NCBI RefSeq assembly: GCF_016653405.1
Contig: NZ_NHSN01000008.1
Location: forward strand, 1 to 64,000
DNA: 64,000 nt
Direction of reading: 5' to 3'
From: Halorhodospira halophila
GTDB lineage: Bacteria; Pseudomonadota; Gammaproteobacteria; Nitrococcales; Halorhodospiraceae
The notes under the pieces were generated by a model, which saw only the letters and a program-made list of their open reading frames with translations, ran no database searches and was not told the origin of the DNA. This document shows positions 11,423 through 55,581 of the stretch, piece by piece (within the stretch, counting starts at the first letter, position 1; every line of letters begins with the position of its first letter). The position numbers were made by a program, and so were the translations under genes.

Positions 11423-11431
11423 GAATCGCCC

Positions 11432-11983: not shown

Positions 11984-11993
11984 GGAGTTCCTC

Positions 11994-15472: not shown

Positions 15473-15475
15473 GGC

Positions 15476-16597: not shown

Positions 16598-16665
16598 GAC
16601 GCTCCTGCGTCGGTCACTCTGTAGGCCAGTCGTGGCCGATCCGCTCAGCCGATCAGCACGCGCGC

Positions 16666-28615: not shown

Positions 28616-28692
28616 CGGGGCGTGGCGCAGTCTGGTAGCGCACCTGCATGGGGTGCAGGGGGTCGCAGGTTCAAATCCTGCCGCCCCGACCA
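28616..28692 (+). tRNA. tRNA-Pro (GGG)
   Basis: A 77-base cloverleaf: acceptor CGGGGCG pairs with CGCCCCG, anticodon arm CUGCA-UGGGG-UGCAG region gives GGG, T-arm GCAGG-UUCAAAU-CCUGC and an encoded CCA. Phage sequence begins right after it, so its 3' half is the likely attachment core. Confidence 0.95.
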
Positions 28693-36400: not shown

Positions 36401-39400
36401 GGCCGTAGGGACAACCCCTTCTTGCGACGCCATTCCGCTGTGGTAGTAAATCTGACGGCCTAATGCGTCCGCGAGGGCCTGGTAGTCCGCGTCCGGAATT
36501 TTGAGGCGGATTTGCTCTGTCCAGCCGCCCTCATCCTCCATCGCCTCGATAGCATCGAGGTTATTGTTTTCGTACTCGAAGTACGCCTCCTCGTTGAAAA
36601 CGACGGAGCCATCATCTCTCTGCGTGAAGAAGCGGGAATCGTCTCCACGGTCGGGCCGGGTCGCGGGGCCCGTCGTGCGCTCTCGGGCGAACATGGGACG
36701 GCCAGCATCCGCGCCCGAGCCTGCACCTTCGACAAACTCGGGGCGACGAACTTCTTGCTGCAGGCCTGACTGCTCGGCAAAACCTCGCCCGCCCTCGTAA
36801 ACCGCCAGGACACCCTGGTCGGACCGCATCACAACGGCGTTGGAGTCACTAATCTGCGGAGCGATTTCCGACAGCAGTTCGTGGGCAATGCCTGCCTGGC
36901 GGCGCCGATCATCCGGATCAAGCTGCTCATCCAGTCGGACGACGGTCACAGCCCCGTCATCTGCGTAGTTCTGGCGCTGAACCTTTTGCGGCCTCACGCC
37001 CTCGCCTCTGAGGAGACGCCCCAGCGGCGCGGTGTAGCGGCCTCGCTTATCCGCGCTGATCGTTCTTTGCGGATCAGCGGCTGGTTGAGCGGCCTCGGTC
37101 TCCGGGGCTTCGCCCCTATCTGCTGTGCGCCCCTCTCGGGCAACCCCCGGCCGGCCGGCAACGTCCTCGACGTCCATCTGCGCCTGGCTGCCGTCGAACA
37201 GGCCGCCCGGCCCTTCACCCGGGTCTACGGCGTCGCGATCTCGCCCGGCCAGGCGGTCATCCACGGTGCGCTCGGCGTCCGCGCGCTGCTGCGCCTGCTG
37301 ATCCACGGGGCCAAGCAGGTCCTCCTGGCCGGCCTCCGCCTCCTCCGTGGTGGGCTCAGCCACCGGGTCGACACCTGGCTCCGGCGCCACATCATCCCCG
37401 AGCTCGCGCCGGATCTCGGCGACCAGTTCCGGGTCCGTCTGCCAGTTTGCCCAGCGCTCACGCTCTTGCTGCAGCTGCTCGATGCGCTGGTTCACGGCCT
37501 CGGGGTCGCTGACGTCGACACCCTCGGATCGCGCCACATCCGGGCGCCGGGCGGCACCGCGGATGGCGGAGAGGCGCCGGCCGATCTCCGACTGCCGGCG
37601 AGAGGCCACCCGGGACATATCGCGAGCCCGCTCCATGGCGGACTCGTCGAGGCCGAACATGTCGCCCTGCTGGGGGTCGGCGCGCTCACCCATGGACTGG
37701 ACGGCGCGTATGGTGTTGGCCGCCTGCTGGATGCTTCGGCCATCACGGAGCTCGGCCAGGCCGAGCGCCTGGAGGGAGTCGTCGCCGGGGGCGGCGTTGG
37801 CGATCTGCGCAGCCGCCTCGTCGGTTACTTGGTCGGCCGCGTGCGCTTCAGCCAGTACGTCGCTACCTCGCTCGGCGATCTCGAACCCGCGGCGCCCTTT
37901 TGCCCGCGCTGTGAGGCCTTCTTGGTCCGCTTGCTCGCGCGGGATGTTGTGCGACCGGAAGAATTGGACATAGTCCTTCACCTCGCCCTGTCCGTCTCGG
38001 ATGTTGAGGATAGCATCGAGCGCCCGGGCGTCCTCCGCCGTGAAGCCCTCATCCTCGCGGTGGATCTGCGCAGGGATGGTCTCCTCGCCCGAGCGCCGGG
38101 CCAGGTCCAGGCGATGCCGGCCGGTGACCACCTCCTGAGAGCCGTCGCTGCGCTCCCAGATCTGGATCGGCGCAACGCCCCGCCGGTCGAACTCGCCGCC
38201 GAGGGGATCCACGACGCCGGTGTCTTCATCGGCGCCCGCCTTGAACTGCGGCACCTCGTCGGAAAGGCGCAGCCGCTCGACGGGAACCTCCTGGACCGGC
38301 AGGCCGTCGGTGACGCCCTGGTCGGCCGGGGCCGTTTCCTGGGCGGGGCCTTCCTCTACGCCAGGCGCATCGACGTCCGCGGCCTCCACAGGGGCGGCCG
38401 CCGGGTCTGCTACATCGGGGGCACCCATAGCCTCCGGCTCTCCCGGGGCCTCAGCTGCCGGGGCCTCGGCAGGCATTGCCGCATCCGGGCGGCGCAGCAC
38501 CCAGCCGTCTGCGGCCTGGGCCGGCTCGTAACCCTCGAGGCGGCGGCCGCGGGCGGCCAGGCGGGCGGCGGTCTCCGTCGGGTAGGCCGTGCCGTCAGTG
38601 CGGCGCACCTCGTCGCCTTCAGCTGGATCCGCGGGCATGGACTCCGGCTGCGCCTCCGGGTCGGCCAGGTGCTCCCGGGTCATCCGGTCGACCTCAATGT
38701 CCGGGGCGCTCTCCGCCTCCGGGGTCTGCGCGGCGATGCCTTCCGGCTGCTCGGCCTCAATGCGCTGCCCGGCTTGGTCCGGGGTCGGGTCGGTCGCCTG
38801 CGTGACCTCCATGAGATCGAGGATGGTATCGGCGGCCTCGTCCGGGCCGAGCTTAGACAGGCCGTCCCGAGCGCGCTGCAGCTCCGGGTCAGACTCGACC
38901 ACGCTGTCGAGCTCACGCTCGAAGTCGGTCGGGTCGCCCTCCCAGAGGCCGCGGCCACGCTCCACTGCAGCACGGCCCGCCTGGGTGATCCCCGCCGAGC
39001 CCGCACCAATGCCGGCCCGGTAGAGCACGTCGTCGAACAGCTCCTGCTGCTCGTCGTAGCTCATCTGGCCCCAGTTCTGGACCAGCGCGCCCGCGCCCTC
39101 GACCCCGGCCTCATTGGCCATGGAGCTGACAATCTGGCCGCCCGCGCGGTCGAACAGCTTGCGGCGCGCCTCCTGCGGCATGCTCCTGAGTAGGAAGCCA
39201 ATGTTCGCCACCTGGACCGCGCCGCCGCCGAGGCCAAACTGCCGGGCCACCGACTGCGCCTCCTCGTCGTCGAGGCCATGGGCCTTGGCGCGCTCGAACG
39301 CCTCATCTGCGCCGGCAGCGGCAGCCGTGGGCACGGTGGCGCCGTACTGGCCGCCCGTGGTCGCCCAGCGCTGCCCACGCTGACCGGCGCCGGCAACCCG

Positions 39401-39922
39401 GGAGAGACCGCGAGCAGCCGCGCCGCCCCCGCCGCCGAGCGGGAGGAACATCGCCATGGAGCCGACGCCGCGGCCCAGGTCTGTGGCGGGGTCCGCCTCG
39501 TACATCGGGTCGATGTCGATATCCTCGGCCCGGTCGATCAGGGCCTGGCCGGTTTCCGCCAGGCGCCCCTCGCCAAGATCCTCGGGCGATGAAATGGCCC
39601 GGTCTGCGCCGCGCAGGGCGCCGCCGGCAGCGCCAAGGAGGCCCTGCGGGACGCCTTGCCCGAAAGCCTTGGCGCGGCCCGCGGCCGTGCGCTCGGGGGC
39701 TTCATCCCCGCGAGCGAACGACGCGATCTCTTCGTCCTCGAAGGCATCGGGCTGAGAGGCGGGAACAGACGGGGTCTGCTGCTCACCCTCCTGGGCGAAA
39801 CCCAGAATCTCATGGTCGATGTCGTCCAGGCGCTGCTCGCCGCCCTCCTGGGGAGCCCCTTCTGCAGAGGCCTGGTCGCCCTCGGCCGCAAAGTCGAGGA
39901 TCTCGCGGTCCAGCTCGTCCAT
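30407..39922 (-). CDS. Giant phage polyvalent protein / internal virion protein (3,171 aa)
   Basis: A mosaic protein as described for phage polyvalent proteins, which are injected with DNA. In order: acidic repeat-rich head (1-60, two IDHEILGFA-like units), Gly-rich helices (80-350), a ParB-like domain (about 545-620, VTGRHRLDLARR), low-complexity linkers, an ADP-ribosyltransferase-like stretch (about 1155-1255, IYYHSGMAS...PAYFSASREYAETM), a pyrophosphatase-like polyvalent domain (about 1295-1425, YGYIRRSEGADGDHVDVFLG), a second ART-like domain (about 1455-1560, LYHGTDQEGADAI), a zincin with HEVQH near 1783, a second zincin (LLHESIGHYG near 2096), and ~1,000 helical residues with hydrophobic patches (e.g. 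FMVGAVGGSILAMI) resembling podovirus ejection proteins. It is the last gene of the late operon. Domain names other than ParB and the zincin motifs are pattern-based. Confidence 0.85.
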   Translation of the reverse strand: MDELDREILDFAAEGDQASAEGAPQEGGEQRLDDIDHEILGFAQEGEQQTPSVPASQPDAFEDEEIASFARGDEAPERTAAGRAKAFGQGVPQGLLGAAGGALRGADRAISSPEDLGEGRLAETGQALIDRAEDIDIDPMYEADPATDLGRGVGSMAMFLPLGGGGGAAARGLSRVAGAGQRGQRWATTGGQYGATVPTAAAAGADEAFERAKAHGLDDEEAQSVARQFGLGGGAVQVANIGFLLRSMPQEARRKLFDRAGGQIVSSMANEAGVEGAGALVQNWGQMSYDEQQELFDDVLYRAGIGAGSAGITQAGRAAVERGRGLWEGDPTDFERELDSVVESDPELQRARDGLSKLGPDEAADTILDLMEVTQATDPTPDQAGQRIEAEQPEGIAAQTPEAESAPDIEVDRMTREHLADPEAQPESMPADPAEGDEVRRTDGTAYPTETAARLAARGRRLEGYEPAQAADGWVLRRPDAAMPAEAPAAEAPGEPEAMGAPDVADPAAAPVEAADVDAPGVEEGPAQETAPADQGVTDGLPVQEVPVERLRLSDEVPQFKAGADEDTGVVDPLGGEFDRRGVAPIQIWERSDGSQEVVTGRHRLDLARRSGEETIPAQIHREDEGFTAEDARALDAILNIRDGQGEVKDYVQFFRSHNIPREQADQEGLTARAKGRRGFEIAERGSDVLAEAHAADQVTDEAAAQIANAAPGDDSLQALGLAELRDGRSIQQAANTIRAVQSMGERADPQQGDMFGLDESAMERARDMSRVASRRQSEIGRRLSAIRGAARRPDVARSEGVDVSDPEAVNQRIEQLQQERERWANWQTDPELVAEIRRELGDDVAPEPGVDPVAEPTTEEAEAGQEDLLGPVDQQAQQRADAERTVDDRLAGRDRDAVDPGEGPGGLFDGSQAQMDVEDVAGRPGVAREGRTADRGEAPETEAAQPAADPQRTISADKRGRYTAPLGRLLRGEGVRPQKVQRQNYADDGAVTVVRLDEQLDPDDRRRQAGIAHELLSEIAPQISDSNAVVMRSDQGVLAVYEGGRGFAEQSGLQQEVRRPEFVEGAGSGADAGRPMFARERTTGPATRPDRGDDSRFFTQRDDGSVVFNEEAYFEYENNNLDAIEAMEDEGGWTEQIRLKIPDADYQALADALGRQIYYHSGMASQEGVVPTANDEQPAYFSASREYAETMGRTEAAPYRITPSSPLIVKSDDALAGSDSVIARELREAGYDAAITPTGEEVVVIDQDIVRHDTDADPSRTEAGKAQGRIDQAAAETDTDPTEAQAEAGNYRKGRLSLHGLDISIENPRGSTRSGTAPDGTSWETTMADHYGYIRRSEGADGDHVDVFLGEQAHDPDLPVFVVDQVDPESGAFDEHKVMLGYPDEQAARDGYLANYEDGWQGLGGIRELSLDDFKAWLESGDTTTPAERAEAPRHSLETREGRGDPIVSGQGEDLVTLYHGTDQEGADAIRASGDIKSGGPYMGVRGVSLTPRRDVAQEFADANDPDAEGVVFEVEVPRDRLQIDPEHADTFDLQAALDDGASVIADNDVVVDEEVFRSAQTEGSRHAFGGERAETADHHSLADAVRRLEAGENAETVRRETGWHRGPDERWRFEIDDSQASVNLEALERFEGGWQRQARLGDLLDHPQLFAAYPGLADMDVATSRSRDSSYSPAVDMISLSDDLRRKIDSYAEDGDAFKFLRERIEKLENQDVEAEGRENFELSKQVDNPYGSPYATVEDAIKHQRRFRDLELSRLRAQLESGEVAGQQGIERRILSTILHEVQHAIQVREGFAEGGNSDQAPRQISRQIGREMADTGAYQALREHASAIHEMGVWTQAETISDLRNVKQPRQVLRSEVYQENKSAAHDHAGEPPKRGRLQWAQDVGAFLAGQMQREAGPDVRSILEQYSRNEIKNRARNARRRLSRQDTKRLQRANLLDQERKRLEQGVSRSEAERLYRALYGEVEARNVQHRQHMSADERAETAPEQTQDVGDADAIVVFRGTEHRAPAHLAESPSQMSASEGQAHVDQVTANWADAPAIRVVETGLDLPAAVARQAFEEGALADVRGVYHQGEVYLVASRHRTIQDLERTLLHESIGHYGLRRMLGQELNPLLNQVWASYGRTGLQDVIDTYFPQGDFNPDNREHRHLVAEEKLARMAEMGDRLGERQGIVRRFIQAVRNWARRAGMRVNLTDSELAEILQRARQAVEQGGMDMAPRQPSRMSVIRYAMPERRQIGRGQTTDPAEPQFDDMPAIENRYAELARLRGFWEGAADVLRRQPQLRHLADAIDGYFDASRRRLGEVNSIIRPAMQQVPSRLNRRAYRETFRLFERYQAAKENGRKEEARQIREEGPEAVRGLIHAWEKVARLTGDQNREVGVKVWDDNMIDWNAVRERVGPAGERQLRGVPRKQQPAKWAELVRRQNPQSELLHSHPDLPRKGGWRDIGQARDFFPRVLKKEVQQALMHPKGQPETWARIQEELLAAGYIQHPREAERYINNHFARERGSDYFAGIEKARKEPLPEWFYDYSWDAAMIYKDRWADRISQVEFFGQAEVDPEGDIFDKAKKLTTDHHTQGYIDQVQQRVYNNIDTSMLTQFMGVTNTFATGAMLGNPATAVLNLIGGSGLNFQLYGAWPGIKALAHEVSRFGQTLDMGTQKGILVHDFLTVLHDAQQQGVPERLSKFTSTMLKLGGYTPAEVFIRSHAMLTAKAFLDQSLALWNRNPSSKRSLRHIAFFQREGFDYRRLLEENGEGPETDRFLRKGVNLTQGSYRVNQVPVFTDTPAGRFLFKYQKFGTQLSRMFWRHHLKPAIDSLFQGGEIVDVEIGGEMHQKRVRTITPLIRFFMVGAVGGSILAMIREGAFGYQDPGPEWEEIEKQLASGEWAEAAVLGAWRFWHSNMAVGSLGFFGNYAQFFHDVADRQRVKSPLDPPGLSPVTETVDMGMRFFEQGGYLDWRDAHDFLEGVSSQYRTGNRAALIALNQVTDWRQAEWESVQRDRSYVRKMVRRYADEANIERRRRAPDRIAHSEMTPITRRINKELLLGNAEAAREIAVERLEQAETRNDFDRTMRAIQASVRAYQPARVIESPSDAERRDFLRWVEGRVGPEAYQRIRQTDERFREAAQQAGLMPEDDPLQEMRQDWEHERGDEPMGEGERRLRMMRQGLLRPQ

Positions 39923-44181: not shown

Positions 44182-45263
44182 CACAGCCTCCCGATGCGCA
44201 CGCGCAGCGTGCCGTTGCCGTCGTAGACGCTGATCCGGTCGTTGCTCACCGACATCGCGCCATCGTCCCGACTCCGGGTGATGGTGACGTTCCCGTTCGG
44301 GTCCACCTGGAATCTGCCGTCGCCGATGTCGATCTGACCGGCTGTGATCGAGCCCAGGTTGGCGCTGATCGCGCTCAGGGCGTCGGCGGTGATCTTGTCG
44401 GCGGCCACGCTTCCGATCTTCGCGTTCTCAATCGAGGCGTCGGCGATGTAGGCGACGTTGATAACCACTGCCTCCTCGCCGTCGACCTCACCAATCAGGA
44501 ACGGGACGCTATCCTTCGCCGGGACCGTGAGCCAGGTCACGGAACCATCCTCGACCTCCAGGCCGGGATCGCTCGGCCATTCCGGCTCGACAGGCCCGCT
44601 GACCCCGGGCGCGATGCACCGGAGCATCACGTCGCCCTCATCCGGCGCGACATAGTTGAAAGCGCGGTACTGGTGATCGGGGCGCCATCGTTCAGCGAGC
44701 AGGTTCTCCATGATGTTCTCGGGCGAGCGCGACGTCTCCCCGGTCACGGATTCGCTGACCGGACCCTCGACGCCGGCGTCGCTGACATGCTGGACCCAGT
44801 AGCGATGCACAGCGTTTTGACCGACCGCGTTGGAGTACAGGACGCCGGTGCTGGAGCCGATCCGAACCGCCTGGCCAAAGTCCTCACCCTCTCCGGCGCG
44901 GTAGATGACCGTGCGGCTGTGGTTTGCATACCCGGGCTGGTCCCAAGAAAGGATGATGGTGCCGAACGCTCCATCCGCTTCAACGCCGCTCGGCTGCGGC
45001 GGAGTGGTGACCGTGTCCAGCTGTCCGCGCGGGATCAGGAGGTCAGTTGCTGACATGCCGGCCCGGCGGGCCGCCACCTCTCGGACGCTGGCCAGATCCA
45101 AGTCCGCCGCCTCCCGGAGCGTCAGCGATTTGTCGAGCGGGTCACCGCGGTCACCGCGGGACACCTCGACCGTCTCCTTGACGGCTTCCAGGAACTCGCG
45201 AACCTGGGGCGAGGCATCTTTCGGGACTGCCGGCATCTTGCCGGTGCGCGTCTTCTGACTCAT
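44181..45263 (-). CDS. Tail tip / fibre-like protein with FN3-type and J-like C terminus
   Basis: A 360-residue protein. An FN3-type beta domain lies at about 90-165 (TTPPQPSGVEA...IILSWDQP), followed by a C-terminal part (from about 265) of ADKITADALSAISANLGSIT, the pattern of lambda J-type/DUF1983 tails that trimerise and carry the tip. ATGA overlap with the gene before. It is probably part of the host-contact apparatus together with the DGR target upstream. Confidence 0.7.
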   Translation of the reverse strand: MSQKTRTGKMPAVPKDASPQVREFLEAVKETVEVSRGDRGDPLDKSLTLREAADLDLASVREVAARRAGMSATDLLIPRGQLDTVTTPPQPSGVEADGAFGTIILSWDQPGYANHSRTVIYRAGEGEDFGQAVRIGSSTGVLYSNAVGQNAVHRYWVQHVSDAGVEGPVSESVTGETSRSPENIMENLLAERWRPDHQYRAFNYVAPDEGDVMLRCIAPGVSGPVEPEWPSDPGLEVEDGSVTWLTVPAKDSVPFLIGEVDGEEAVVINVAYIADASIENAKIGSVAADKITADALSAISANLGSITAGQIDIGDGRFQVDPNGNVTITRSRDDGAMSVSNDRISVYDGNGTLRVRIGRL

Positions 45264-46903
45264 CCCTGGACCGCCTCCACCGCCTCAGCGATCAGCACCT
45301 GCTGGACATGATCCGTGCCCTCCAGCTCGATCTCGGCGTCAATGGCCACGTATCCCGACGGGAGCGGGAAAAGGCGGTTGGTGTCCACGCTCTTGTCCGC
45401 GCGCAGCTGCCCGCCGGCATACAGGCGAAAGCTCAGATCGTTGTAGCTGACGGCTTCCACCCGAGCCATTGATAGGTTGATGGGGCGCCGCCAGGAATAG
45501 AGCTTGGAGCGCCACCTGTAGCGCATCGGCGCACCCCCTTTGTCCCACTCGAGCAGGGCGCCTGTGTCGGTGAGCAGATATAGCGTGTCGTCGAGGTGGT
45601 CCCGGTGCCCGGCCACGATGCCGTCGACCTCAATCTCAACCAGGCCGCTACGCTCATCCCGGGGGTCGAGAAAGAACGCGCCCCCGTCATAGAAAGCCAG
45701 ATACCCGCCGCGCCACTCGTACGCATGGATGGTGTCCGGCTTGTACTCCGCCCAGTCCCGGGGCGCGAGCAGGCCCTCAGTGATGACGCGCGCCCCACTC
45801 GAGCGGTCCACCATCACCAGGCCGTCCGGTGCGGGATAAACGACCGCATAGCCCAGGGACACGATCCCGCGCTTTGATAGGCAGCCCTGATTTACTTCCA
45901 GGCGAGTCTGCTGCATGCCACGGGGGTCGGATCCGGTCAGCAGAACCGGCTCGTTCTCCGTGCACACCACGACGTGCTGGTCGAACACGCCCAGCCCCAC
46001 CACCCTGTCGGACACGGTGACCTGATAGCTGCCGGGCCAGGCGTGAGGCATGTACGCCTCACTGACCCACACCCCTTGCCCCTCAAAGCCGGCGAGCATG
46101 CCGTTCGGCAGATTCACGAGACCCTGCAGCCCCTCGGGCGGCGGATCCCACTCGACGCTTGGCAGGGGCTCCCCCAGGGCGCCGCTGTCCACCGTGTCTT
46201 CGTACTCCGTGACCGACGCGTCGATCTCGTCCACGAAGAAGAACTCCGCCTGGCTGGTGCCGGCCTCCGTGCGGTAGATGCGGATGCGCTCGATCAGCCG
46301 ATCCGACCCCGCGCTGCTGTCGACGTGGATGTCACCCACCGTGACGCCCTGCCCCGGGGCCGCCGGAGCATTCCCACTGGGCGGGCTCGGCGGACCTTCC
46401 TCGCCAAGGGCGGTGACGTAGGTGTAGACGTAGAAATGGTCGCGCAGATCTGCTTCCTCGGCGTCCTCATCGGGCTCCATGGGCTCCGCCGTAGGCGCGG
46501 CGCTCGGAGCCGGAACGCCCAAGGCATAGCTCGTCACCGGATACTCATCGGCTCCGCCTTCATAGACCGCGGGGGTGTAGCTCATCCGCGGCCCGCCATA
46601 CCGCTCATCGCCCGTCCAGTACACGCGCCGTCGCGCGTCCTCATTCAGGGGCGAGGTGGCAACGTCCACATCGCCCGGGAAGCGCAGCCAGTAGGAATCG
46701 TCCCCGGCCCTCCACAGGGCGAACGAGCCGACGCTATAGCCGGGCAGTTCCAGCGAGCCAGCCTCCCGTGGCTTTCGGAACGGCCTCAGCTCTCCAGAGT
46801 CGAGCAGGCAGTTGACCGCCTTCTGCGCCTGGTATGCTTCCAGCAGGCGGGGCCCTACCCGCGGCGCCATCCCGCCGAAAACGCGCACCGCGCGATGCTC
46901 CAT
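45260..46903 (-). CDS. Tail tubular / stopper-like protein
   Basis: A 547-residue beta-rich protein. The middle carries LPNGMLAGFEGQGVWVSE, PHAWPGSYQ, then a GCLSKRGIVSLGYAVVYPAP segment and PDGLVMVDRSSG, all typical of the podovirus tail protein family that follows the DUF6682-like adaptor (tubular B-like). The start overlaps the reverse transcriptase stop (TGATG), so the RT and this structural gene are translationally coupled. Confidence 0.7.
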   Translation of the reverse strand: MEHRAVRVFGGMAPRVGPRLLEAYQAQKAVNCLLDSGELRPFRKPREAGSLELPGYSVGSFALWRAGDDSYWLRFPGDVDVATSPLNEDARRRVYWTGDERYGGPRMSYTPAVYEGGADEYPVTSYALGVPAPSAAPTAEPMEPDEDAEEADLRDHFYVYTYVTALGEEGPPSPPSGNAPAAPGQGVTVGDIHVDSSAGSDRLIERIRIYRTEAGTSQAEFFFVDEIDASVTEYEDTVDSGALGEPLPSVEWDPPPEGLQGLVNLPNGMLAGFEGQGVWVSEAYMPHAWPGSYQVTVSDRVVGLGVFDQHVVVCTENEPVLLTGSDPRGMQQTRLEVNQGCLSKRGIVSLGYAVVYPAPDGLVMVDRSSGARVITEGLLAPRDWAEYKPDTIHAYEWRGGYLAFYDGGAFFLDPRDERSGLVEIEVDGIVAGHRDHLDDTLYLLTDTGALLEWDKGGAPMRYRWRSKLYSWRRPINLSMARVEAVSYNDLSFRLYAGGQLRADKSVDTNRLFPLPSGYVAIDAEIELEGTDHVQQVLIAEAVEAVQG

Positions 46904-47928
46904 CAGGCCGCCTCCCTTATGAGGACAACGTCGTCGATAACGGATTGAGTGACTCGGGCTGCGTCGCAGTGCTGGGTATGCCCCACAAAGCTGGCAACCC
47001 GCTGGCGCACCTCCTCAAGGCTCATGCGCCCCTCTCCGTACAGCCGGGCTGCTCGCTGCAGGCGGCGCCGGGCCGCCACGATGTTTTTCCGTCGAGGCAA
47101 CATGTGCGTCGACCAAGTTCGGTATCCGGCCCAGTCGACGCCCTGGGTGGTGGGGTAGACCAGGGCCTTGCTGAGCTTGAGCCCGAGCTCGTCGCGGAGC
47201 AGATCCTCGAGCAACCGCTTTGTCCGCCACGCCTCGTCCTTGCTCGTCAGCAGCAGAACGGCATCGTCCATGTACCTGGCGTACCCCTTGACCCCCATCT
47301 CGTCCTTGACCATGTGATCGAGCCAGTCTAGGTAGATGTTGCCGCTGAGCTGGCTGGTCAGCGCGCCGATGGGCAGCCCCACGTCGCGGCCAGCGCCCCG
47401 GATGATGCGCTCCCAGATGGTCAGCACGCGCCGGTCGGAAATCGTGCGGGCGATCTGCTCCAGGAGACGGTCGTGCTGGATGCTCGGGAAGTACTTGCTG
47501 ATGTCAATCTGGAGCGCGTAGACCCGGCCCCAGCGCGCCTCCGCCCTACGCAGATGGCGCTGCATATCGGCAGCGGCCCGGTGCGTTCCTCCGCCCTTTC
47601 GGCACGCATAGCTGTGGCGGATGAAGCGCCGCTCGAAGTGCGGCTCTACGGCGGCCACCAGTGCGTGGTGGACGATTCGATCCCGGAAAGTCGGGGCTTC
47701 GATAATCCGGTATTTCGGCTCGTAGACCGGGAAACTGGTAAACGGATCCGGTTGCCACGTTCCGGATACGAGATGCTGCTGTATCTCAACCAGACGTTCT
47801 TCCCAGCGGGCGTGGAAATGCACCGCCTTCGGCTGATCCCGCTTCCCTTTTCGACACCGCTCATATGCAGAAGTCAGTGCAGGCCATGAGGCGACCTGCG
47901 GCCACAGTCCCGTGACCGTCCTGGGCAT
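46903..47928 (-). CDS. DGR reverse transcriptase
   Basis: A 341-residue RT. Motif A is LQIDISKYF with Asp142, the catalytic box is YMDD at 219-222, and the segment IGALTSQLSGN at 187-197 holds the [LIV]GxxxSQ signature that marks diversity-generating retroelement RTs as against group II intron or retron enzymes. It makes mutagenised cDNA from the template repeat RNA, with Avd. ATG 47928 follows GGGAGCGGG. It lies after avd and the TR in the late operon and its stop overlaps the next tail gene. No maturase or endonuclease domain follows, excluding a group II intron. Confidence 0.95.
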   Translation of the reverse strand: MPRTVTGLWPQVASWPALTSAYERCRKGKRDQPKAVHFHARWEERLVEIQQHLVSGTWQPDPFTSFPVYEPKYRIIEAPTFRDRIVHHALVAAVEPHFERRFIRHSYACRKGGGTHRAAADMQRHLRRAEARWGRVYALQIDISKYFPSIQHDRLLEQIARTISDRRVLTIWERIIRGAGRDVGLPIGALTSQLSGNIYLDWLDHMVKDEMGVKGYARYMDDAVLLLTSKDEAWRTKRLLEDLLRDELGLKLSKALVYPTTQGVDWAGYRTWSTHMLPRRKNIVAARRRLQRAARLYGEGRMSLEEVRQRVASFVGHTQHCDAARVTQSVIDDVVLIREAA

Positions 47929-48117
47929 CCCGCTCCCTTTCTTCCGGTGGGTAAAAGGCCCGCCGCCACTTTCCCCGGACAGGTACTCGCCGCGACGGGG
48001 TGTTCATCTTTCCGCTTCCCTGCGGCGGTACGCAGCCCCGATTCTCTGGAATCGCCGCGGAGCGAGCCGTAGCCCCACCCCGTCGAGGTGACTTTGCCAC
48101 CAGGCGACCCTGGAGGG
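47929..48117 (-). ncRNA. DGR RNA spacer between TR and RT
   Basis: The 189 bases from the TR end to the RT start hold no coding frame with a ribosome site. DGRs need the RNA just past TR for cDNA priming by the RT-Avd complex. Two hairpins are visible: GCGACCC/GGGTCGC (48104-48121, four-base loop, abutting TR) and CGATTC/GAATCG (48039-48054, four-base loop). Confidence 0.55.
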
Positions 48118-48234
48118 TCGCAGGCGCAGCGCAGCCCGACATTGCTATTCACATTCCACGGGTTATTGCGATTGACATACCGGGCGCCGGCCTCGTCCGT
48201 GTTGGACCAATTGCCGCCGGCATTGAGCACTCGC
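48118..48234 (-). repeat. DGR template repeat (TR)
   Basis: A 115-117-bp copy of the VR. On the coding strand it would read nine AAT/AAC (Asn) codons and one TAT (Tyr), the usual adenine-loaded TR. It begins directly after the avd stop codon (48235-48237). All 15 differences from the VR fall on its 24 adenines; none of the other positions differ. The last ~22 bases (coding sense) contain no adenine and are identical to the VR, as expected of an initiation-of-mutagenic-homology segment. Confidence 0.97.
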
Positions 48235-48597
48235 CTACGGCTGCGCACCTTGGGCAATTCGCGCCTGCAGGCCGCCTATCATCTTGCCAATCTCCATGAG
48301 GAGCTTCGTCGCGTGCCTGTGGGAGCGCTGGCTCAGCATTCGCCGAGAAGCTGCGATCCTCAGGCGCAGGCGAAGGAACTCCAGCTCCTCGTCGAGCGCC
48401 ATCACGGCGCCCGCTTTGCGCTTCGGTATCCGCCGAGGCGTTTTCTGGACGCGGATCGCGTTCCATTGGAGCCGGTACACGCTTCGCTTTATCTCCAGCG
48501 CTGCTGCCCACTTCTCAGCGCGCGGGAAGGAATCGAGGCGCGGCATGACCCACGCCTCGAAGTCCTCCAGGCGCTGGAGTAGCTTGAACTCCTCCAC
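48235..48597 (-). CDS. avd: DGR accessory variability protein Avd
   Basis: A 120-residue protein made of basic helices (KLLQRLEDFEAWVMPRLDSF, cited to 20), with the 'KAGAVMALDEELEFLRLRLRIA' type helix, here cited only in part, of the Avd four-helix bundle family. Avd forms a pentamer, binds the DGR RNA and directs cDNA synthesis with the RT. It starts with GTG 48597, 21 bases after the target stop, and ends exactly at the TR. Arg/Lys-rich, as needed for RNA binding. Confidence 0.92.
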   Translation of the reverse strand: MEEFKLLQRLEDFEAWVMPRLDSFPRAEKWAAALEIKRSVYRLQWNAIRVQKTPRRIPKRKAGAVMALDEELEFLRLRLRIAASRRMLSQRSHRHATKLLMEIGKMIGGLQARIAQGAQP

Positions 48598-48618
48598 GAC
48601 AGGGACCCAGGGATCAGA

Positions 48619-49629
48619 TCACAGAGAATCGCAGGCGCAGCGCAGCCCGACACTGCTAGCCACACGCCACGGGTAAGCGCGAAGGACACACCGGGCGCCG
48701 GCCTCGTCCGTGTGGGACCAATAGCCGCCGGCACCGAGCACTCGCAGGTCGGTGCCATACGCCTGGCCGTGGTCCTCGCTCTCGTCCTTGCCGGCGTTAA
48801 CACTGTCCGTGTAGTTGTTCGCCTCGGCCTCCAGGAACAACTCGGCAAGCGTCTGGCGCAGATTCCCGGAGGGCTGGTCGAGGTTAAGGCAGCTGACCGC
48901 CTCGAACCCGTAATCGCTGTGCTCGCCTGTGCTGACCCTTCCTCCGGCGTCGGTCGATCCCTGCGGCACCCCATACGCGGCGGCGTGCCACTCCTGTGCC
49001 GTAGGCAAACGCTTACCGGCGTTACGCGCGAGCCTGAGATAGTCGTAGAACAGCGCATACCCCTCGGAACCGCTCAACGGCGTTGCACCGTAAGCGGACA
49101 GCGGAACCGTGTCCGGCCAGCCCTGCCCGTCCTCGCTGGCGAGGTAGATGTCCAGCCAGAGCCGATCCGGGATGATCTCGACCATGCCCGTCGGGTCGCA
49201 GGTTGGGCGATGCCGGAGGTCCCAGGCCGAGTTCGGGATGATCTTCTGATCCAGGGTGGTACTGGAGTCGTAGGCCTGGTCCAGCGTGCGGACTCGGCCG
49301 TAGTGGAAGCCGCCGATGCGCCGGCTCTCGGTCGTGCCGTGCCCGTCGGGAGCCGTCTTGTTTTTGCTCGCCACCAGCTTGGCGATGCCGGAGTCCTGTG
49401 CGACGGCGTAGATGTAGACGCTATCCCCGAGGCTCATCTCGCCGCCCAGGGTGCCGTCCTCGTTCTCGTGCGGCTCCCAGTCAAGAGTCTCTCGGATGAT
49501 GAACCCCTGCCCGTGGCCGCCGATGTTGAGCGCCATGTCAGGGACGTCGACCCTGGTGTCGCCGGACGTCTCCATCCTCCCCATGATCTCGGCGACGGCA
49601 GGCATCTTCGCTGCTTCGATGCTACGCAT
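48619..49629 (-). CDS. DGR target: FGE/C-type-lectin-fold variable protein
   Basis: A 336-residue protein. The middle and end have the formylglycine-enzyme-like C-type lectin pattern used by DGR targets (LPTAQEWHAAAYG, GGYWSHTDEAGARC, ending SSVGLRCACDSL). Residues ~296-333 are the VR. It begins MRSIEAAKMPAV, overlaps the upstream gene stop (TGATG), and precedes avd. Placed among fibre genes, it is most likely the receptor-binding tip diversified by the DGR. All Asn codons of the TR have been changed in this copy, so this allele has been through mutagenesis. Confidence 0.93.
   Translation of the reverse strand: MRSIEAAKMPAVAEIMGRMETSGDTRVDVPDMALNIGGHGQGFIIRETLDWEPHENEDGTLGGEMSLGDSVYIYAVAQDSGIAKLVASKNKTAPDGHGTTESRRIGGFHYGRVRTLDQAYDSSTTLDQKIIPNSAWDLRHRPTCDPTGMVEIIPDRLWLDIYLASEDGQGWPDTVPLSAYGATPLSGSEGYALFYDYLRLARNAGKRLPTAQEWHAAAYGVPQGSTDAGGRVSTGEHSDYGFEAVSCLNLDQPSGNLRQTLAELFLEAEANNYTDSVNAGKDESEDHGQAYGTDLRVLGAGGYWSHTDEAGARCVLRAYPWRVASSVGLRCACDSL
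48629..48745 (-). repeat. DGR variable repeat (VR)
   Basis: The 117-bp variable repeat, aligning without gaps to the TR over 115 bp. It differs at 15 positions, every one an A in the TR coding strand, changing ten codons (nine Asn and one Tyr in the TR become Gly, Tyr, His, Leu, Ala, Tyr, Arg, Ala, Ser and Cys). Confidence 0.96.
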
Positions 49630-49958
49630 CAGCTCAGCTCCTTGATCTTGTTCTCGACCTCATCGACGCTGAACCCAAGGCGATGGATCAGCGCGCGGTC
49701 ATCCTCGACGCGGATGTGCTGGACGCGCCCTTCTTCCTCGTCCTCGATGACGCGATACTCCGGCTCCTCACCGTCCGGCTCCTCACCGTCGCCGAGAACA
49801 CGGTCACGGTCATAGCGCCAGCGGCCATCCAGTAGCGCCTGCCAGTACCGATGCAGTCGATCGATATCCCGCGGGCGCAGCTCCCCGTCGAGCGCCATCT
49901 GGTGGACGCGCTCGTAGTCAGAGCGCGTAGCCAGGGCGGGGCTAGGGATCCCCTTCAT
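49629..49958 (-). CDS. Phage protein of unknown function, acidic
   Basis: A 109-residue protein from ATG 49958 (GGAGGAG nine bases before). Helical N-terminal half and acidic central stretch (DGEEPDGEEPEY). Just upstream of the DGR target, whose start overlaps its stop. Chaperone or small tail component possible. Confidence 0.55.
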   Translation of the reverse strand: MKGIPSPALATRSDYERVHQMALDGELRPRDIDRLHRYWQALLDGRWRYDRDRVLGDGEEPDGEEPEYRVIEDEEEGRVQHIRVEDDRALIHRLGFSVDEVENKIKELS

Positions 49959-49960
49959 GG

Positions 49961-50350
49961 TCAATTCTCCTCCGTGGCCAGGTATCCATCGATGATCACC
50001 AGCCTGTACTGGTTGCCGGTCTCTCGGTCCTTGCCACCGTCAGCTACCCAGCCGATCAGATCCGAGTTCAGGCGAAGCTCCACCGCGGTCCCGGATGGCC
50101 AGTTGCGCAGCGTGGTGTCGTAGGCCGCGCGCTCGACGTGGAGGGTGTTCCCGTCGCGCTTGGTGACGCGGCAGGTCTCCCAGTCCACCTCCCGGCCCTT
50201 GACCCGGTGCGGAAGGGTGATGTCGAAGAACTCCTCACCCTCCATCGGATCGGGGAAGACGCTGCCGTCGTCGACCTCGATGGTGTCGTCGCCGGTCTCG
50301 GCGTACACCGCAAGCCGGGTCACCGCGTTATCGGCTACCAGTCGTTTCAT
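49961..50350 (-). CDS. Small fibre/receptor-like phage protein
   Basis: A 129-residue beta-rich protein with the FDITLPHRVKG...CRVTKRDGNTLHVERA pattern typical of phage proteins next to tail-fibre adaptor genes. It overlaps the gene before by four bases (ATGA) and ends three bases before the next start. Probably an accessory fibre or spike module. Confidence 0.65.
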   Translation of the reverse strand: MKRLVADNAVTRLAVYAETGDDTIEVDDGSVFPDPMEGEEFFDITLPHRVKGREVDWETCRVTKRDGNTLHVERAAYDTTLRNWPSGTAVELRLNSDLIGWVADGGKDRETGNQYRLVIIDGYLATEEN

Positions 50351-50631
50351 CGTTCACGAACCCTCATGCGAAAATCGATCTGCTTGATGCGCCCGGCGCT
50401 GGTGTCCACCGTCACGCTGATGTTGTAGGTGGTCCGGTCCTTACCGCCCTCGAGCCAGAGCTTGACGTACTCGTCGTAGACCGCCTTGCTCTGTAACTGC
50501 AGGCCGCCCGATTCGTCCGGGCTTATGTCCACATGCACCTGCTGGATGCCGTCGCTGGTCTCGGCCAGCCAAGGCCGGAGATCGACGTCGTAGTCCAGGA
50601 CGTCCGACGGCTGCTTGGTGAACGTCTCCAT
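50347..50631 (-). CDS. Phage fibre-tail adaptor protein
   Basis: A 94-residue protein. The pattern 'P.DVLDYDVDLRPWLA', a VYDEYVKLWLEGG segment and TTYNISVTVDT matches the small phage fibre-tail adaptor family, which links fibres to the tail. It lies between the repeat protein and the small fibre-like gene. A single conserved domain, so the call rests on pattern recall. Confidence 0.7.
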   Translation of the reverse strand: METFTKQPSDVLDYDVDLRPWLAETSDGIQQVHVDISPDESGGLQLQSKAVYDEYVKLWLEGGKDRTTYNISVTVDTSAGRIKQIDFRMRVRER

Positions 50632-52599
50632 CTACATCTCCACTCGGATGACACGAGGCTCTTCCGGAACGACCACCTGGCGCGGTTCTCGCGCCACAAA
50701 GGCCCGGCGGCGGCCCGGGGCCATATGCTCTGCGTTGATCCGAAGAACCGCCTCGATGCTGGGCGAGGAGCGGACGCCCCCCTGGACAAAGACCTGGACG
50801 AGCACCACTGCGGAAATTCTGGCCGGCACCAGTGCGCTTGCGCCGGGAGAAGCCACCGGCTTGGTCATGTACGAAGCAGACACCGTCGGCGCCGCGTCGA
50901 CCTGGGCCTCCGGCCACGCCCTCAATCCGGGCCTTCCTACCAGGTGCAGTCGATGGGAGAACTCACCGCCGGAGAACCTGCGCCTGTCTCCTTTCCCGGT
51001 CGTGTACAGCCGGGACGACGGCCGGACCCCGCCTTCAACGGCCCGCTTTGCCGTGGCCGGCGACGCTTCGACTCGGGGCCTCGGGCCGACATGCGCCGAG
51101 GCCGTCATCCGCCGGGACGCGCCGGCGGCGACCCATAGCTCAGGCGCCACCTCTCCGGCGTGGGTGACCGGCGGCGGGATGTAAATGAACCGGATTGCGG
51201 GCGGGGCTACCGACCCCGCGGCGTACACGCGGCGGATCCCGTCTTCGCGCGTGACGGTTTCAAGCGCGCGGATCGCTGGTTCCGTGTGGATCGAGACGCT
51301 TTCGTTCCGGCGGATTCCGCCGACGCCGGCGACCGACACGTCCGGCCGAACGTCAGTGCTCGGCCTGCGATCAACCCACGGCTCGCCCTGCACCTCCACC
51401 CTCGCCCGACTCCATGAACGCGGGGTCGGGAGGTGGCGCGCCGCGATTCCGGCCCACACGGCGCCGCGCCCTTCATGGCGCGCCCGCTGGCGCACCAGCC
51501 AGCGCGACATGTTGAACCTGACCGTGGTAGCCAGGCGCAGCTGGGCAGGCTTAAACCTCAGCGCACGACCGTAGGTGTTGACCACCAAGAACGAGAACCG
51601 GATCTGGCGCGCCTGAACCCAGGCCTGCGCATGCCTGGCGTTGGCTCCGATGGCCGTCCGCCCGATGATGCTGCCGAAGCCATTGAGGGCCGCTGACGCG
51701 TGCTCGCTGGACCACAGGTCTGCCAGGCGCGCAATCCGGGGCTGACTCGGGTCCGGCCACAGGCGAGTTAGCGGAGAGGTGAGCCCCAGGGGCTTCGCAT
51801 GGCGGACGGCATCTCCAGAGACCCGCGTCCAGGTCGCGCGGACTGGGCCCGGGATCGCGTCTCGGATCAGGTTAACGACCCGCCCAAGGTCAGTGACTCG
51901 CGCCGGAACATCCAGCCACACCCGGACGCGGGTGTACCGGATGGGGTTGGCGTGGATCCGGGTGCCGTAGTGGTGGCGGGCACGCGCTACGGCAAACCGG
52001 ATCGGGTCACCTGTTACGCGCGGACGGCCCCAGACGGCTGAGGTCGGCTTGGCCAGGCGAACACCGTTTCCGGACATCGCTGGATTCGCGTCGACCTGGG
52101 CCTGGGGCTTGGCGTAGCGGATCGGGTCACCATGAACCTGGAGCTGCGGGGCCGGACCAGAGAAATCGTCCCCGACATTCCCGTTGATCGCTCCAGCGTT
52201 GACCGCAGAGCCGAGGGCGCCATGGGAACGCCCCATACCGCCGAGGTACACCTCGGAGAACGGTCGAGCCTTCCGCACCGCACTCCCGCTTATCGAACCC
52301 GAAGGGGACGCGGCACTGCGTGGCGGGTGGGCGTTATTGATGGCCTCTCCGGACAGGGCGCCGGCCGTGCGGACCCCCGCATTCGGCTTCGCTCGGCGAA
52401 CCGCGTCGCCCATGAGCCTGCCCGGCGCGGGCACCGTGGCCGTGGGTCTGCGGACCACATACGGGGATCCGCTGATATCGACCGCAACAGCGCGCCCCGA
52501 GAAGGACGCGTCGTTGACGGCCGCGCCATTGACGGCCGGCCCGTTGAGCGCCCCATCGGCCCGGAACGCCCCTGTAATAGCGCCAGCCGCCTCAGGCAC
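50632..52599 (-). CDS. Large repeat protein of unknown function (655 aa)
   Basis: A 655-residue Arg/Ala/Gly/Pro-rich, basic protein starting at GTG 52599 (AGGTGA before). It is built of degenerate 16-24-residue units such as GDPIRYAKPQAQV, GNGVRLAKPTSAV, GDAVRRAKPNAGV and GSAVRKARPFSEV in the first half, and less regular beta-like units later. No catalytic motif. It sits between the probable tail-tip beta protein and the fibre-tail adaptor in the late operon, where tail fibre or baseplate-like genes are expected. Very unlike its acidic neighbours in charge. I do not recognise a family. Confidence 0.75.
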   Translation of the reverse strand: MPEAAGAITGAFRADGALNGPAVNGAAVNDASFSGRAVAVDISGSPYVVRRPTATVPAPGRLMGDAVRRAKPNAGVRTAGALSGEAINNAHPPRSAASPSGSISGSAVRKARPFSEVYLGGMGRSHGALGSAVNAGAINGNVGDDFSGPAPQLQVHGDPIRYAKPQAQVDANPAMSGNGVRLAKPTSAVWGRPRVTGDPIRFAVARARHHYGTRIHANPIRYTRVRVWLDVPARVTDLGRVVNLIRDAIPGPVRATWTRVSGDAVRHAKPLGLTSPLTRLWPDPSQPRIARLADLWSSEHASAALNGFGSIIGRTAIGANARHAQAWVQARQIRFSFLVVNTYGRALRFKPAQLRLATTVRFNMSRWLVRQRARHEGRGAVWAGIAARHLPTPRSWSRARVEVQGEPWVDRRPSTDVRPDVSVAGVGGIRRNESVSIHTEPAIRALETVTREDGIRRVYAAGSVAPPAIRFIYIPPPVTHAGEVAPELWVAAGASRRMTASAHVGPRPRVEASPATAKRAVEGGVRPSSRLYTTGKGDRRRFSGGEFSHRLHLVGRPGLRAWPEAQVDAAPTVSASYMTKPVASPGASALVPARISAVVLVQVFVQGGVRSSPSIEAVLRINAEHMAPGRRRAFVAREPRQVVVPEEPRVIRVEM

Positions 52600-52609
52600 G
52601 GGTCACCTA

Positions 52610-53053
52610 TCAGCCGTTGTCGATCTTGGACACGACGACCGAGCCCTGGTCCCAGGTCAGTACGTCGCCCGGCTCCAGGGTGCGGGACGAGTAGAGCGGC
52701 GCGGCGAACATCAGCACATCGTCGTCCGAGCTCTCACCGTAGCGCCCGAAGATACCGAAGTGCGTAACCGTGACCTCGCCGTCCTCGATCGGGTTGAACT
52801 CGATCGACTTGGCGTTCTGGGTCTCGCCCTCCTCGGGCGAATCGAAGGCGTCGGAGACCGGATACCCTTCGTGAGCGGCATCCTTGCGCACATAGTTGCT
52901 GTCGCTGAGCTCTACGTTCAGGTCGGCACCGGGGCCAGGGTCGTCCGTAAAGAGCCCGATCATCACGCGATCCGGCGGGTCCTCGCTGGCGCCCCGGAGC
53001 AGCATGTTCAGGACCATGTTCGCGGTTTCGTGGGTATAGTAGCCAGTCGCCAT
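52610..53053 (-). CDS. Small beta-rich tail/fibre-type protein
   Basis: A 147-residue acidic protein with alternating strands (YYTHETANMVLNMLL, then VMIGLFTDDPG, FGIFGRYGES). The 'LFTDDPGPGADLN' type loop is seen in phage tail fibre-associated small proteins. ATG 53053 with GAGGGAAG before it. Co-directional with and 18 bases after the gene at 53072. Confidence 0.6.
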   Translation of the reverse strand: MATGYYTHETANMVLNMLLRGASEDPPDRVMIGLFTDDPGPGADLNVELSDSNYVRKDAAHEGYPVSDAFDSPEEGETQNAKSIEFNPIEDGEVTVTHFGIFGRYGESSDDDVLMFAAPLYSSRTLEPGDVLTWDQGSVVVSKIDNG

Positions 53054-53071
53054 CAGTCTTCCCTCATGTAG

Positions 53072-53632
53072 TTACACGAATCTGCGGGGCTGCACCCGGA
53101 GGTTTTTCTCGGTGTGCCCCTTTGCCCGTCGTGAGCGCGCCTCAACGACGCCCCTCCGGAACCGGTTGCTGAAGTATTCCGCCCCGTCGAACGAGCTCCA
53201 CGGCTTGCCCGGGATCTCCATGACGCGAGCCAGAGCCCCGTCCTGGATATACGTCCCCCAATGACTCCACACCTCCTCGGGGATCCCGCGGGACCGGGAT
53301 GCCGGCTTCAGTGCAGCGCGCACATAGACGTCGTCGCCGTCTTTGTCGATATCGGAGGCCACTGCTTCCGCTGGTGGGCGGAAGGTAACCTCCAGCAGTT
53401 TCCCTTCCTGCTTGGCCTCGGATACGGCAATCACCTCCGCGCTCGAGGTCGGCGGGTAAAGAAACAGGACACCATCCGGCTCCGGTGGAATGGGGTCCAG
53501 CTCCTCGACCCAGGCGTGACTCTCCAGAAAGAACCGCTCGGCCGCCCTTTGAAGCTGCTGCTTGACCGTCCCCTTGGGCGCGCCCGGGACGTGTGGCATG
53601 ACGCCTGGAAGCATGTCGCTCCACCGGACCAT
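53072..53632 (-). CDS. Head-tail or tail component of unknown function
   Basis: A 186-residue protein overlapping the adaptor gene (TGATG). Helix then beta-rich with basic C terminus. It follows the portal-capsid-adaptor block, where podoviruses have a second head-tail connector or tail tube gene. No family recognised. Confidence 0.55.
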   Translation of the reverse strand: MVRWSDMLPGVMPHVPGAPKGTVKQQLQRAAERFFLESHAWVEELDPIPPEPDGVLFLYPPTSSAEVIAVSEAKQEGKLLEVTFRPPAEAVASDIDKDGDDVYVRAALKPASRSRGIPEEVWSHWGTYIQDGALARVMEIPGKPWSSFDGAEYFSNRFRRGVVEARSRRAKGHTEKNLRVQPRRFV

Positions 53633-54306
53633 CAGTCGTCCTCGCTCTTACGCCGGTACTGCCGATAGGGCCTCGGGCCGACCAGCGCCTCAGCCCGGAC
53701 CTTGGTCTCTCCGAGCGCGTGGTAGAACGCCTCGTAGTAGTGGCCCATGCGAGATGGCGCGGCCTCGCTCGTGTTGAGGCTGTGCGCGAGGTAGAGCATC
53801 CAGTCGCGGACCGGGCCGATGTAGACGGGGTCCAGGTCGAAATCCGGCCAGCTGCCGTTGCCCTCTGGAGGCTTGATCGGCTCCGGGGCCTTCGCGTAGA
53901 CGAGCTCGACCTTCTGGCCTTCCGCGGCCGGCGGCGTCACGTAGAACTCCCGCGGCCTGCGGTCATCCCAGGTGTAGTGGTCGATGGGCTCATCATCGTC
54001 GGGCGACTCGGAATGCCACCCTTCGACCGACGCATCCAGCGTCTCCCTGTCGATCTGCGTCACCGGCTCACCGCCCGGGAGATTGCGGACCACGTCGATC
54101 AGCTGCAGGCCGCCACGGGGGATTGTCTGCAGCGTCCCTTTTTTCAGCTCGACCGGCTTGGTGACCGCGTTGGCGTCCGGCCTGACCAGGACAACGGCGC
54201 GGCGGGCATCGTTGTAAAACCCAACCAGCTGAGACAGGCCCCAGCGATCATGGCCGGGGTCATTGAGGATGCCGGCCGCCTGGTCGACCACGTCCCGAGC
54301 ATTCAC
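53632..54306 (-). CDS. Head-tail adaptor (DUF6682-like)
   Basis: A 224-residue protein with a helical N terminus (VDQAAGILNDPGHDRWGLSQ) that matches the DUF6682/adaptor family of podoviruses, where it attaches to the portal and starts the tail. It has a beta-rich core (DRRPREFYVTPPA). Its place, four genes before the DGR target, and next to the capsid, fits that role. Confidence 0.65.
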   Translation of the reverse strand: MNARDVVDQAAGILNDPGHDRWGLSQLVGFYNDARRAVVLVRPDANAVTKPVELKKGTLQTIPRGGLQLIDVVRNLPGGEPVTQIDRETLDASVEGWHSESPDDDEPIDHYTWDDRRPREFYVTPPAAEGQKVELVYAKAPEPIKPPEGNGSWPDFDLDPVYIGPVRDWMLYLAHSLNTSEAAPSRMGHYYEAFYHALGETKVRAEALVGPRPYRQYRRKSEDD

Positions 54307-54309
54307 CGC

Positions 54310-54612
54310 TTACGAGCCTCCCTGGTCCTCCAGAGCGCGCACCTGCTCACGCAGCGTGTCCACGCTCTGACGCTTGTCCAGATCTGTGTCGTGGTGCTTC
54401 TTCGCGTACTCCGCGAGCTCGTCCTTGGTCATGGAGTCGATGGCGGGGTCGTCTTTCTCGCCCTCCGGTGAGGCCTTGAAGTCGGGCTTGGTGCCGTGCT
54501 GGGGCTTGTCGATGTGCACCACCTCCATGTCCGCCCGGGTGGCCAGCTGCTCTGCATACGGGAACACGCGGTCCGTGCCCTTTTTGCGAAGGGCCTTGAT
54601 CTGCTCAGCCAT
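54310..54612 (-). CDS. Small head-associated protein with HeH/LEM-like segment
   Basis: A 100-residue acidic protein next to the capsid gene, ATG preceded by AGGAGG. The segment SMTKDELAEYAKKHHDTDLD resembles the HeH/SAP-like helical pair found in small capsid-associated proteins. Possible head decoration or completion factor. Confidence 0.6.
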   Translation of the reverse strand: MAEQIKALRKKGTDRVFPYAEQLATRADMEVVHIDKPQHGTKPDFKASPEGEKDDPAIDSMTKDELAEYAKKHHDTDLDKRQSVDTLREQVRALEDQGGS

Positions 54613-54663
54613 GATTCCTCCTTAGGGGGTAGCCCCGGGGCCGGAGCCCCAGGGCAGCGCCGG

Positions 54664-55581
54664 TTACTTGGCCACGGCGTAGAAGTGGCCGATCGCCTCG
54701 GGGTTGGTGACCTTGAACCCGTAGACGTTGAGGCCACGAACAAACTCGCCGAAGTACTGCTCCGACTTGATCCGCTCCGTCTTGGCGATCTGGCTCGCGT
54801 AGGTCAGGCCAGCGCTGTGACCGAACACGCAGTTGAACGCCTTGGAGCCGGTCTCATCGGAGTCGGCCAGGTTGTTGCTGCTGTAGACCTCGAACCGGTC
54901 GATCTGGCCGATGCGGCCATTGCGCATGATCGACGTGCCGTCACCGGCCAGGGAGGCGTCCTTCAGGTCGGACTTCTTGATCTTGCCCGCGAGCTTGGGC
55001 GGGAGCACCAGCCACCGGCCCTGCTGCGGGATCGACTGCTCGTCGAGCACGGTGCCCATGTCGACGATGTAGTCGAGGATGTTGTCCTTGTCGACCTCCA
55101 CCGGGGCGCCGGCCTCGCCGAGATTGATGCCGCCCGACCTCTTGCCCGCATCGGCGCCGGTATTGTCCTCGTGGGCATCGCCGTAGATCTCGCCGAGGAT
55201 CTCCGAGTCGATGCTGATCTGCATCTGCTCGGTGGCGTCGTCCGTGAATTCATCCATGAGCTCGATATCGCTCTGGACCTCGTCCACGTTGTCGACCAGG
55301 ACGTTGAAGTAGTCGCCACGGTCGATGGTCAGCTCGACGTGGTTGCCCTCGGGCACCTCCGGGTCGAGCTTCTCGCCGCGCTTGTACTTCTTGATGGTGA
55401 TGTCCGGGCGCATCCGGATCATCACCTTGGACCCCTGGTCGGAGATCTCCCCTTCCCAGTCGGTGTTGGCAATGGAGCCGAAGATGGTTGTCTCGTAGAA
55501 CTTCGTGTTGAGCTTCGCGCTCCACACCTCCGGGATGAAGTTGCCCTGATAGTCAGGGTGCCCACTGGCTCGATCCACCAT
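54664..55581 (-). CDS. Major capsid protein
   Basis: A 305-residue protein opening MVDRASGHPDYQGNFIPEVW, with a helical arm and the beta/alpha pattern of HK97-fold coat proteins (P22/N4-like class). GGAGG precedes the ATG. Neighbours (scaffold upstream, small acidic head protein downstream) leave little doubt. Rich in Asp/Glu. Confidence 0.85.
   Translation of the reverse strand: MVDRASGHPDYQGNFIPEVWSAKLNTKFYETTIFGSIANTDWEGEISDQGSKVMIRMRPDITIKKYKRGEKLDPEVPEGNHVELTIDRGDYFNVLVDNVDEVQSDIELMDEFTDDATEQMQISIDSEILGEIYGDAHEDNTGADAGKRSGGINLGEAGAPVEVDKDNILDYIVDMGTVLDEQSIPQQGRWLVLPPKLAGKIKKSDLKDASLAGDGTSIMRNGRIGQIDRFEVYSSNNLADSDETGSKAFNCVFGHSAGLTYASQIAKTERIKSEQYFGEFVRGLNVYGFKVTNPEAIGHFYAVAK

Follow-up and report, generated by a model that had tools for sequence, protein, structure and literature searches.

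The window analysed here, a 64,000-nucleotide stretch of Halorhodospira halophila DNA (contig NZ_NHSN01000008.1, positions 1 to 64,000), carries within a prophage a diversity-generating retroelement (DGR) made up of a target gene with its variable repeat (VR), the accessory gene avd, a template repeat (TR) and a reverse transcriptase (RT) gene. That this DGR is complete is close to certain, and we read it, with a probability of roughly 0.75, as a probably functional element of the type known from Bordetella phage BPP-1, belonging to a temperate tailed phage and apparently differing from the prototype in the way its target site is recognized. As a DGR it is another member of a well-known group; the unusual part lies behind VR, where the site has no hairpin and carries a periodic array of CTG triplets. 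A preliminary description of this DNA had identified the cassette and had overlooked both of these features.

The two repeats, TR at 48118-48234 and VR at 48629-48745, both on the minus strand, align without gaps over 117 bp with 15 mismatches, each of which falls on a TR adenine, and no non-adenine position has changed. Realignment reproduced to the base the 115-bp core described previously (TR 48120-48234, VR 48631-48745, with 15 of 24 TR adenines altered) and extended the repeat by 2 bp. By our own arithmetic, the chance that 15 of 15 mismatches would fall on 24 of 115 positions is approximately 5e-13. TR and VR form the longest direct repeat of the region. The TR codons altered in VR are mostly AAT and AAC, none of the A-to-N changes in the VR reading frame yields a stop codon according to the codon table, and the earlier figure of 4^24 alleles is right as a count of DNA sequences. 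No second VR was found elsewhere in the 2.86-Mb host assembly, and a search of viral contigs with the TR/VR pattern did not recover the same phage and hence no variant VRs from it.

All parts of the cassette are intact, lie on the minus strand and follow the order target, avd, TR and RT, as first described. The target gene (48619-49629, 336 aa) bears VR at its 3' end and matches Pfam mtd_2nd (3e-18), FGE-sulfatase and a PHROG annotated as tail protein; its second domain is of the Mtd type by Pfam, and its C-terminus is C-type lectin-like, with a structural model that is of low confidence around VR. For this AlphaFold model (mean predicted local distance difference test (pLDDT), 73), the best Foldseek matches were five Mtd structures, 1yu0-1yu4 (1.7e-17; TM-score, 0.64-0.71). 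Domain sequence and overall fold both place the protein with Mtd, so the earlier suggestion of a likely receptor-binding protein gains a structural homologue in BPP-1, by analogy with which the target may be shown on virions as a receptor-binding trimer. The accessory variability determinant gene, avd (48235-48597, GTG start, 120 aa), scored over the cut-off with Pfam bAvd (5.9e-21) and matched PDB entries 4dwl and 8ub7; the 8ub7 series has five Avd chains per RT chain, in agreement with bAvd being a pentamer. The RT (46903-47928, 341 aa) contains both motifs reported at the outset, IGALTSQ (within LPIGALTSQ) and YMDD (within ARYMDD), which conform to the (I/V/L)GxxxSQ and YxDD of DGR RTs, and it matches the phage RTs of PHROG 1423. 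When a profile of this RT and its relatives was compared with solved structures, the BPP-1 RT (8ub7) came first (3.5e-79) and group II intron enzymes followed far behind, so that its nearest matches are DGR RTs. TR starts immediately after the avd stop codon, and target and avd do not overlap, the stop codon of the target (48619-48621) being separated by 21 nt from the GTG of avd (48597). The TGATG overlaps previously noted at the two cassette ends are real, at 49629 between the preceding gene and the target and at 46903 between RT and the next gene.

Behind VR, BPP-1 has a GC hairpin with a GRNA loop that is required for efficient homing, and inverted repeats of this kind behind VR have been reported to be nearly always present, according to passages of PMC3240598; in E. 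coli, the BPP-1 hairpin was important and not strictly required, according to passages of PMC12875486. No BPP-1-type hairpin (GC-rich, with a 4-nt GRNA loop, 4-34 bp behind VR) was found in the 200 bp behind the window VR. Perfect stems of at least 6 bp within 200 bp behind VR were only isolated ones in the window and its closest relatives, and that of the window, a 6-bp stem with a 3-nt loop at +49, is at chance level, such stems occurring at 21% of random positions. The GRNA hairpin is not a defining DGR feature as such. It is present in relatives of the BPP-1/Mu-like, the Vibrio/Aeromonas and one further clade, and missing in nearly all of the closest relatives, whose VR/TR differences are almost only at adenines. 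In the RT tree, the window fell within a group of 11 hairpin-less rows that had support, and the next branch, a hairpin-bearing locus (L063), was weakly supported. We are highly confident that the target site of the window is without a hairpin.

Directly behind VR, the window reads TTCTCTGTGATCTGATCCCTGGGTCCCTGTCGTG, a stretch that holds the CTG array (48600-48624, minus strand), with CTG starts at 48624, 48617, 48610 and 48602 and spacings of 7, 7 and 8 nt. The leading CTG doubles as the final Leu codon of the target, and 2 nt separate the fourth copy from the start codon of avd; relatives share this layout with variable linkers. Counting as an array three or more CTGs spaced 7/8 nt apart, we detected one behind VR in 71% of 52 non-redundant loci, compared with 0% behind TR, 4% upstream of VR, 0% further downstream and 1.2% in Markov resampling, and CTG with 7/8 spacing ranked first of 64 triplets x 6 spacings in these loci. 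Among 117 related DGRs, 62% had the array behind VR versus 0.9% at random positions. Four units were present in 46 of the 57 array loci of an RT-non-redundant set, with the unit consensus ATCTG; a five-unit count by weight matrix was dropped because its chains extended into weak units and returned 4-10, and the claim stays at usually four CTGs.

The array was absent from seven Mtd homologues in loci without a detected DGR, so it does not belong to the target gene per se. At multi-VR loci, most VRs carry the array or a shorter form of it, and the Mushu phage has its array within a coding sequence, following a VR that is situated downstream of RT and, by 2 kb, of TR. In Vibrio and Aeromonas phages, CTG is replaced by TTG. 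In hairpin-bearing clades the array is located before the hairpin, and many relatives have both. As passages of PMC3240598 describe it, the hairpin/cruciform of DGR target sites resembles the array in standing directly behind VR and being absent at TR, but it is an inverted repeat, whereas the window array consists of direct repeats with a period of 7-8; the same passages place the corresponding BPP-1 stretch in the 21-bp part of the initiation of mutagenic homing (IMH) element that differs from TR and sets direction. Passages of the open DGR literature retrieved by word search and by repeat and periodicity queries, with subscription papers outside this scope, contained no description of such direct repeats.

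A held-out set consisted of 11 further DGRs from genomes of the host's phylum, picked by the Pfam Avd model. At least three CTGs in register were found in 0 of these 11, which ruled out CTG as a universal motif; because of this result, and because the Vibrio and Aeromonas phages use TTG, the CTG triplet is a lineage trait. Measured without any motif, identity behind VR in the held-out set was 0.47 at lag 7, 0.46 at lag 8 and 0.44 at lag 15, whereas random positions gave 0.26-0.29 and the flank behind TR 0.22-0.30; this amounts to a 7-8-nt periodicity behind VR (z 7.2, 0 of 1,000 shuffles) and none behind TR. Loci that were array-negative by the triplet test were still periodic (z 5.0). When loci were divided by avd, the periodicity reached z 16.5 in 83 loci with avd versus 1.8 in eight without, a contrast weakened by the discovery of most loci through avd, by shared descent and by two avd-less loci that had possibly lost or broken the gene.

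Variation among relatives follows the same adenine pattern. The target is encoded in 39 viral contigs, and the order target-avd-TR-RT recurs in ~28 loci with mismatches almost solely at TR adenines; BPP-1, run through the same script as a positive control, returned its known 134-bp repeat. A search of genome contigs for relatives by RT pattern yielded only two, both distant. To judge by their sequences, near-identical relatives are cases of live diversification: L110 and L111 share an identical TR and 700 flanking bases and have 13 VR differences, all at TR adenines; L139 and L140 differ in VR at 17 positions, 17 of them TR adenines; and the hairpin-less, array-bearing L084-L087 show 10-15 VR differences among themselves, nearly all at adenines.

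By homology with BPP-1, the RT-Avd complex would copy TR RNA into cDNA with errors at adenines, the cDNA would replace VR, and the Mtd-like receptor-binding protein would reach the progeny with its ligand-binding face randomised; the observed part of this RT-dependent mutagenic homing is the adenine-only scar. Because the array stands behind VR and never behind TR, it is probably a recognition element that tells VR from TR, and its occurrence without a hairpin in the window lineage suggests that it can serve target recognition without one. A function of the array in homing appears reasonably likely to us. The 7-8-nt period is at odds with the turn of duplex DNA and would be in keeping with single-stranded DNA lying across a subunit ring of the kind that the Avd pentamer forms. 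We speculate that the Avd pentamer might read the array as a single strand, possibly with one unit per subunit of the ring, although we regard reading by Avd as doubtful. The chances are about even that these repeats form an undescribed element of avd-type DGRs, in which pyrimidine-T-G triplets, repeated behind VR with a 7-8-nt period and never behind TR, would mark the target, replace the hairpin and possibly be bound by Avd.

Several points weigh against a functional DGR with altered target-site recognition: homing in this phage is argued from a sequence scar and homology, the target model is of low confidence in parts of its C-terminal half, VR included, the compared loci share ancestry, the BPP-1/Mu-like clade has a degenerate array only, and CTGs in register were missing from the held-out DGRs. 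Shared ancestry, together with a motif that was discovered in the same data and failed to replicate as CTG, could make the periodicity a by-product of descent and post hoc motif choice. We consider this unlikely, given that the period of 7-8 emerged motif-free in a held-out set obtained by another route (with none in the TR flank), persists across RTs of <40% identity and, as CTG at 7/8, came first among all triplets and spacings compared. A decayed or silent DGR, with VR as the fossil of past homing and the hairpin lost through disuse, would fit the absence of a BPP-1-type hairpin and the lack of variant VRs from this very phage in the viral-contig search. Such decay is nonetheless improbable, since the reading frames of RT, avd and target are unbroken and the catalytic motifs retained, 117 bp have accumulated zero non-adenine changes, the hairpin is missing lineage-wide though members show adenine-only scars, and the hairpin-less L084-L087 differ mutually almost only at adenines.

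The array might also be a translation or expression signal for avd and not a target-site element, as it directly precedes avd in the window and the closest relatives, ending 2 nt before a start without a clear Shine-Dalgarno sequence. We give little credence to this role, which is difficult to reconcile with the Mushu array in coding sequence 2 kb downstream of TR, with the arrays at most VRs of multi-VR loci and with the position of the array before the hairpin in hairpin-bearing clades. It is very unlikely, finally, that primase starts on the CTGs during lagging-strand synthesis, leaves the end of an Okazaki fragment beside VR and thereby aids cDNA integration. E. coli DnaG does start on CTG (a passage of PMC5429622), and the BPP-1 target is preferred in the orientation in which its sense strand serves as lagging-strand template (a passage of PMC12875486). 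Against this, TTG replaces CTG in the Vibrio and Aeromonas phages, Bacillus phage BalMu-1 has CTG although Bacillus primase uses CTA, priming needs no strict 7-8-nt spacing, and altered DnaG activity left BPP-1 homing unchanged, a result that its authors call inconclusive (likewise from passages of PMC12875486).

It is an open question by what means a DGR picks out VR while leaving TR untouched, and a passage of a 2026 study terms cDNA integration 'still mysterious' (PMC12875486). A conserved, spaced element behind VR in a hairpin-less lineage offers a concrete sequence to mutate and, if it is the recognition element, would help to aim DGRs at chosen genes for protein evolution. The array could also provide genome searches with a new means of locating VRs and orphan targets.

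Compared with the BPP-1 DGR (mtd-avd-TR-brt), the window shares the part order, TR directly after avd, an Mtd-type target, the late operon and a tRNA att site, with RTs that are 36% identical. BPP-1 differs in having the GRNA hairpin and, of the CTG array, no more than a degenerate form, its cassette is near the end of the late operon whereas that of the window is mid-operon, and a 111-aa gene found upstream of the window target was not found there. Aeromonas phage phiARM81mr and Vibrio phage 1F273_PE002 are likewise phages of 55-60 kb with target-avd-TR-RT inside the structural operon, but have other target proteins and a TTG-type array plus hairpin. The nearest named target (45%) belongs to Chromohalobacter phage YPCBV-1, which has the same small upstream gene, avd, TR and RT but is contractile-tailed and Mu-like, with the cassette at the genome end, a hairpin present and the array degenerate.

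Other loci departed from this arrangement. L032 (4890-7053) holds two adjoining Mtd-like gene copies, with no avd, TR or RT detected in the contig stretch. In L045 (6944-7193), the VR-TR gap is only 155 bp and the profile found no avd between or nearby, making it a possible avd-less derivative. Different DGRs occur in two further species of the host's genus (L063 in G005, L064 in G003); one of these DGRs has a related RT (51%) and a hairpin, with no Mtd-like target found, and cassette parts seem to recombine.

The setting in a prophage late operon, as originally proposed, was borne out. The 3' 45 bp of tRNA-Pro(GGG) form attL (28648-28692, plus strand), with an exact copy at 84295-84339 of contig C8 (attR, outside the window), and between them lie genes for terminase, a portal-like protein, major head and tail proteins, DnaB helicase, an S24-type repressor and thymidylate synthase; the att repeat and the enclosed phage genes therefore delimit a 55.7-kb prophage in tRNA-Pro. 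Together, the att repeat, repressor, packaging and structural genes and an integrase mark a temperate phage, the integrase being an open reading frame adjoining attR that resembles a tyrosine integrase by eye. Because the genes are on the same strand with TGATG couplings, and no promoter-like site was found in 46500-54700, the cassette is likely co-expressed late, with RT as a late gene. Next after RT, and overlapping its stop by TGATG, is the late gene of a virion protein (PHROG 511; 45260-46903, minus strand).

Directly upstream of the target, the 111-aa gene (49629-49964, minus strand) is a cassette member in >30 relatives, including one Mu-like phage. Its product had no Pfam or PHROG match and a confident AlphaFold model (pLDDT 92.5) without PDB match; it is perhaps an Mtd docking partner or chaperone. 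Between TR and RT, the spacer (47929-48117, minus strand) is a putative structural region of the template RNA, judged by position and by analogy with the BPP-1 spacer described in passages of PMC12875486. A small hairpin at the TR/spacer junction (GCGACCC-TCCA-GGGTCGC; 48104-48121, minus strand) may belong to the fold of the template RNA. In relatives, the 45 nt behind TR show an enrichment of CAGA (56% versus 13-14% in shuffles) that, with this hairpin, possibly reflects template RNA structure; CAGA occurs behind TR also in 37% of loci without the array, so that pairing between array and CAGA is at most a possibility.

The late operon ends with a giant phage protein of 3171 aa that has inorganic-pyrophosphatase-like and LPD23 domains (30407-39922, minus strand). 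The prophage thymidylate synthase is encoded at L005:17974-18816 (contig C8, outside the window), and Bacteroides phage jmh42_hp likewise has ThyA near its DGR, raising the question of whether nucleotide pools may bear on adenine mutagenesis via phage ThyA. Left of the prophage, the host DNA (1-16700, minus strand) holds a BREX-like defence cluster with BrxA, BrxB, BrxC, PglX, a TrlF/Ppl-like ATPase and an Orf5-type protein.

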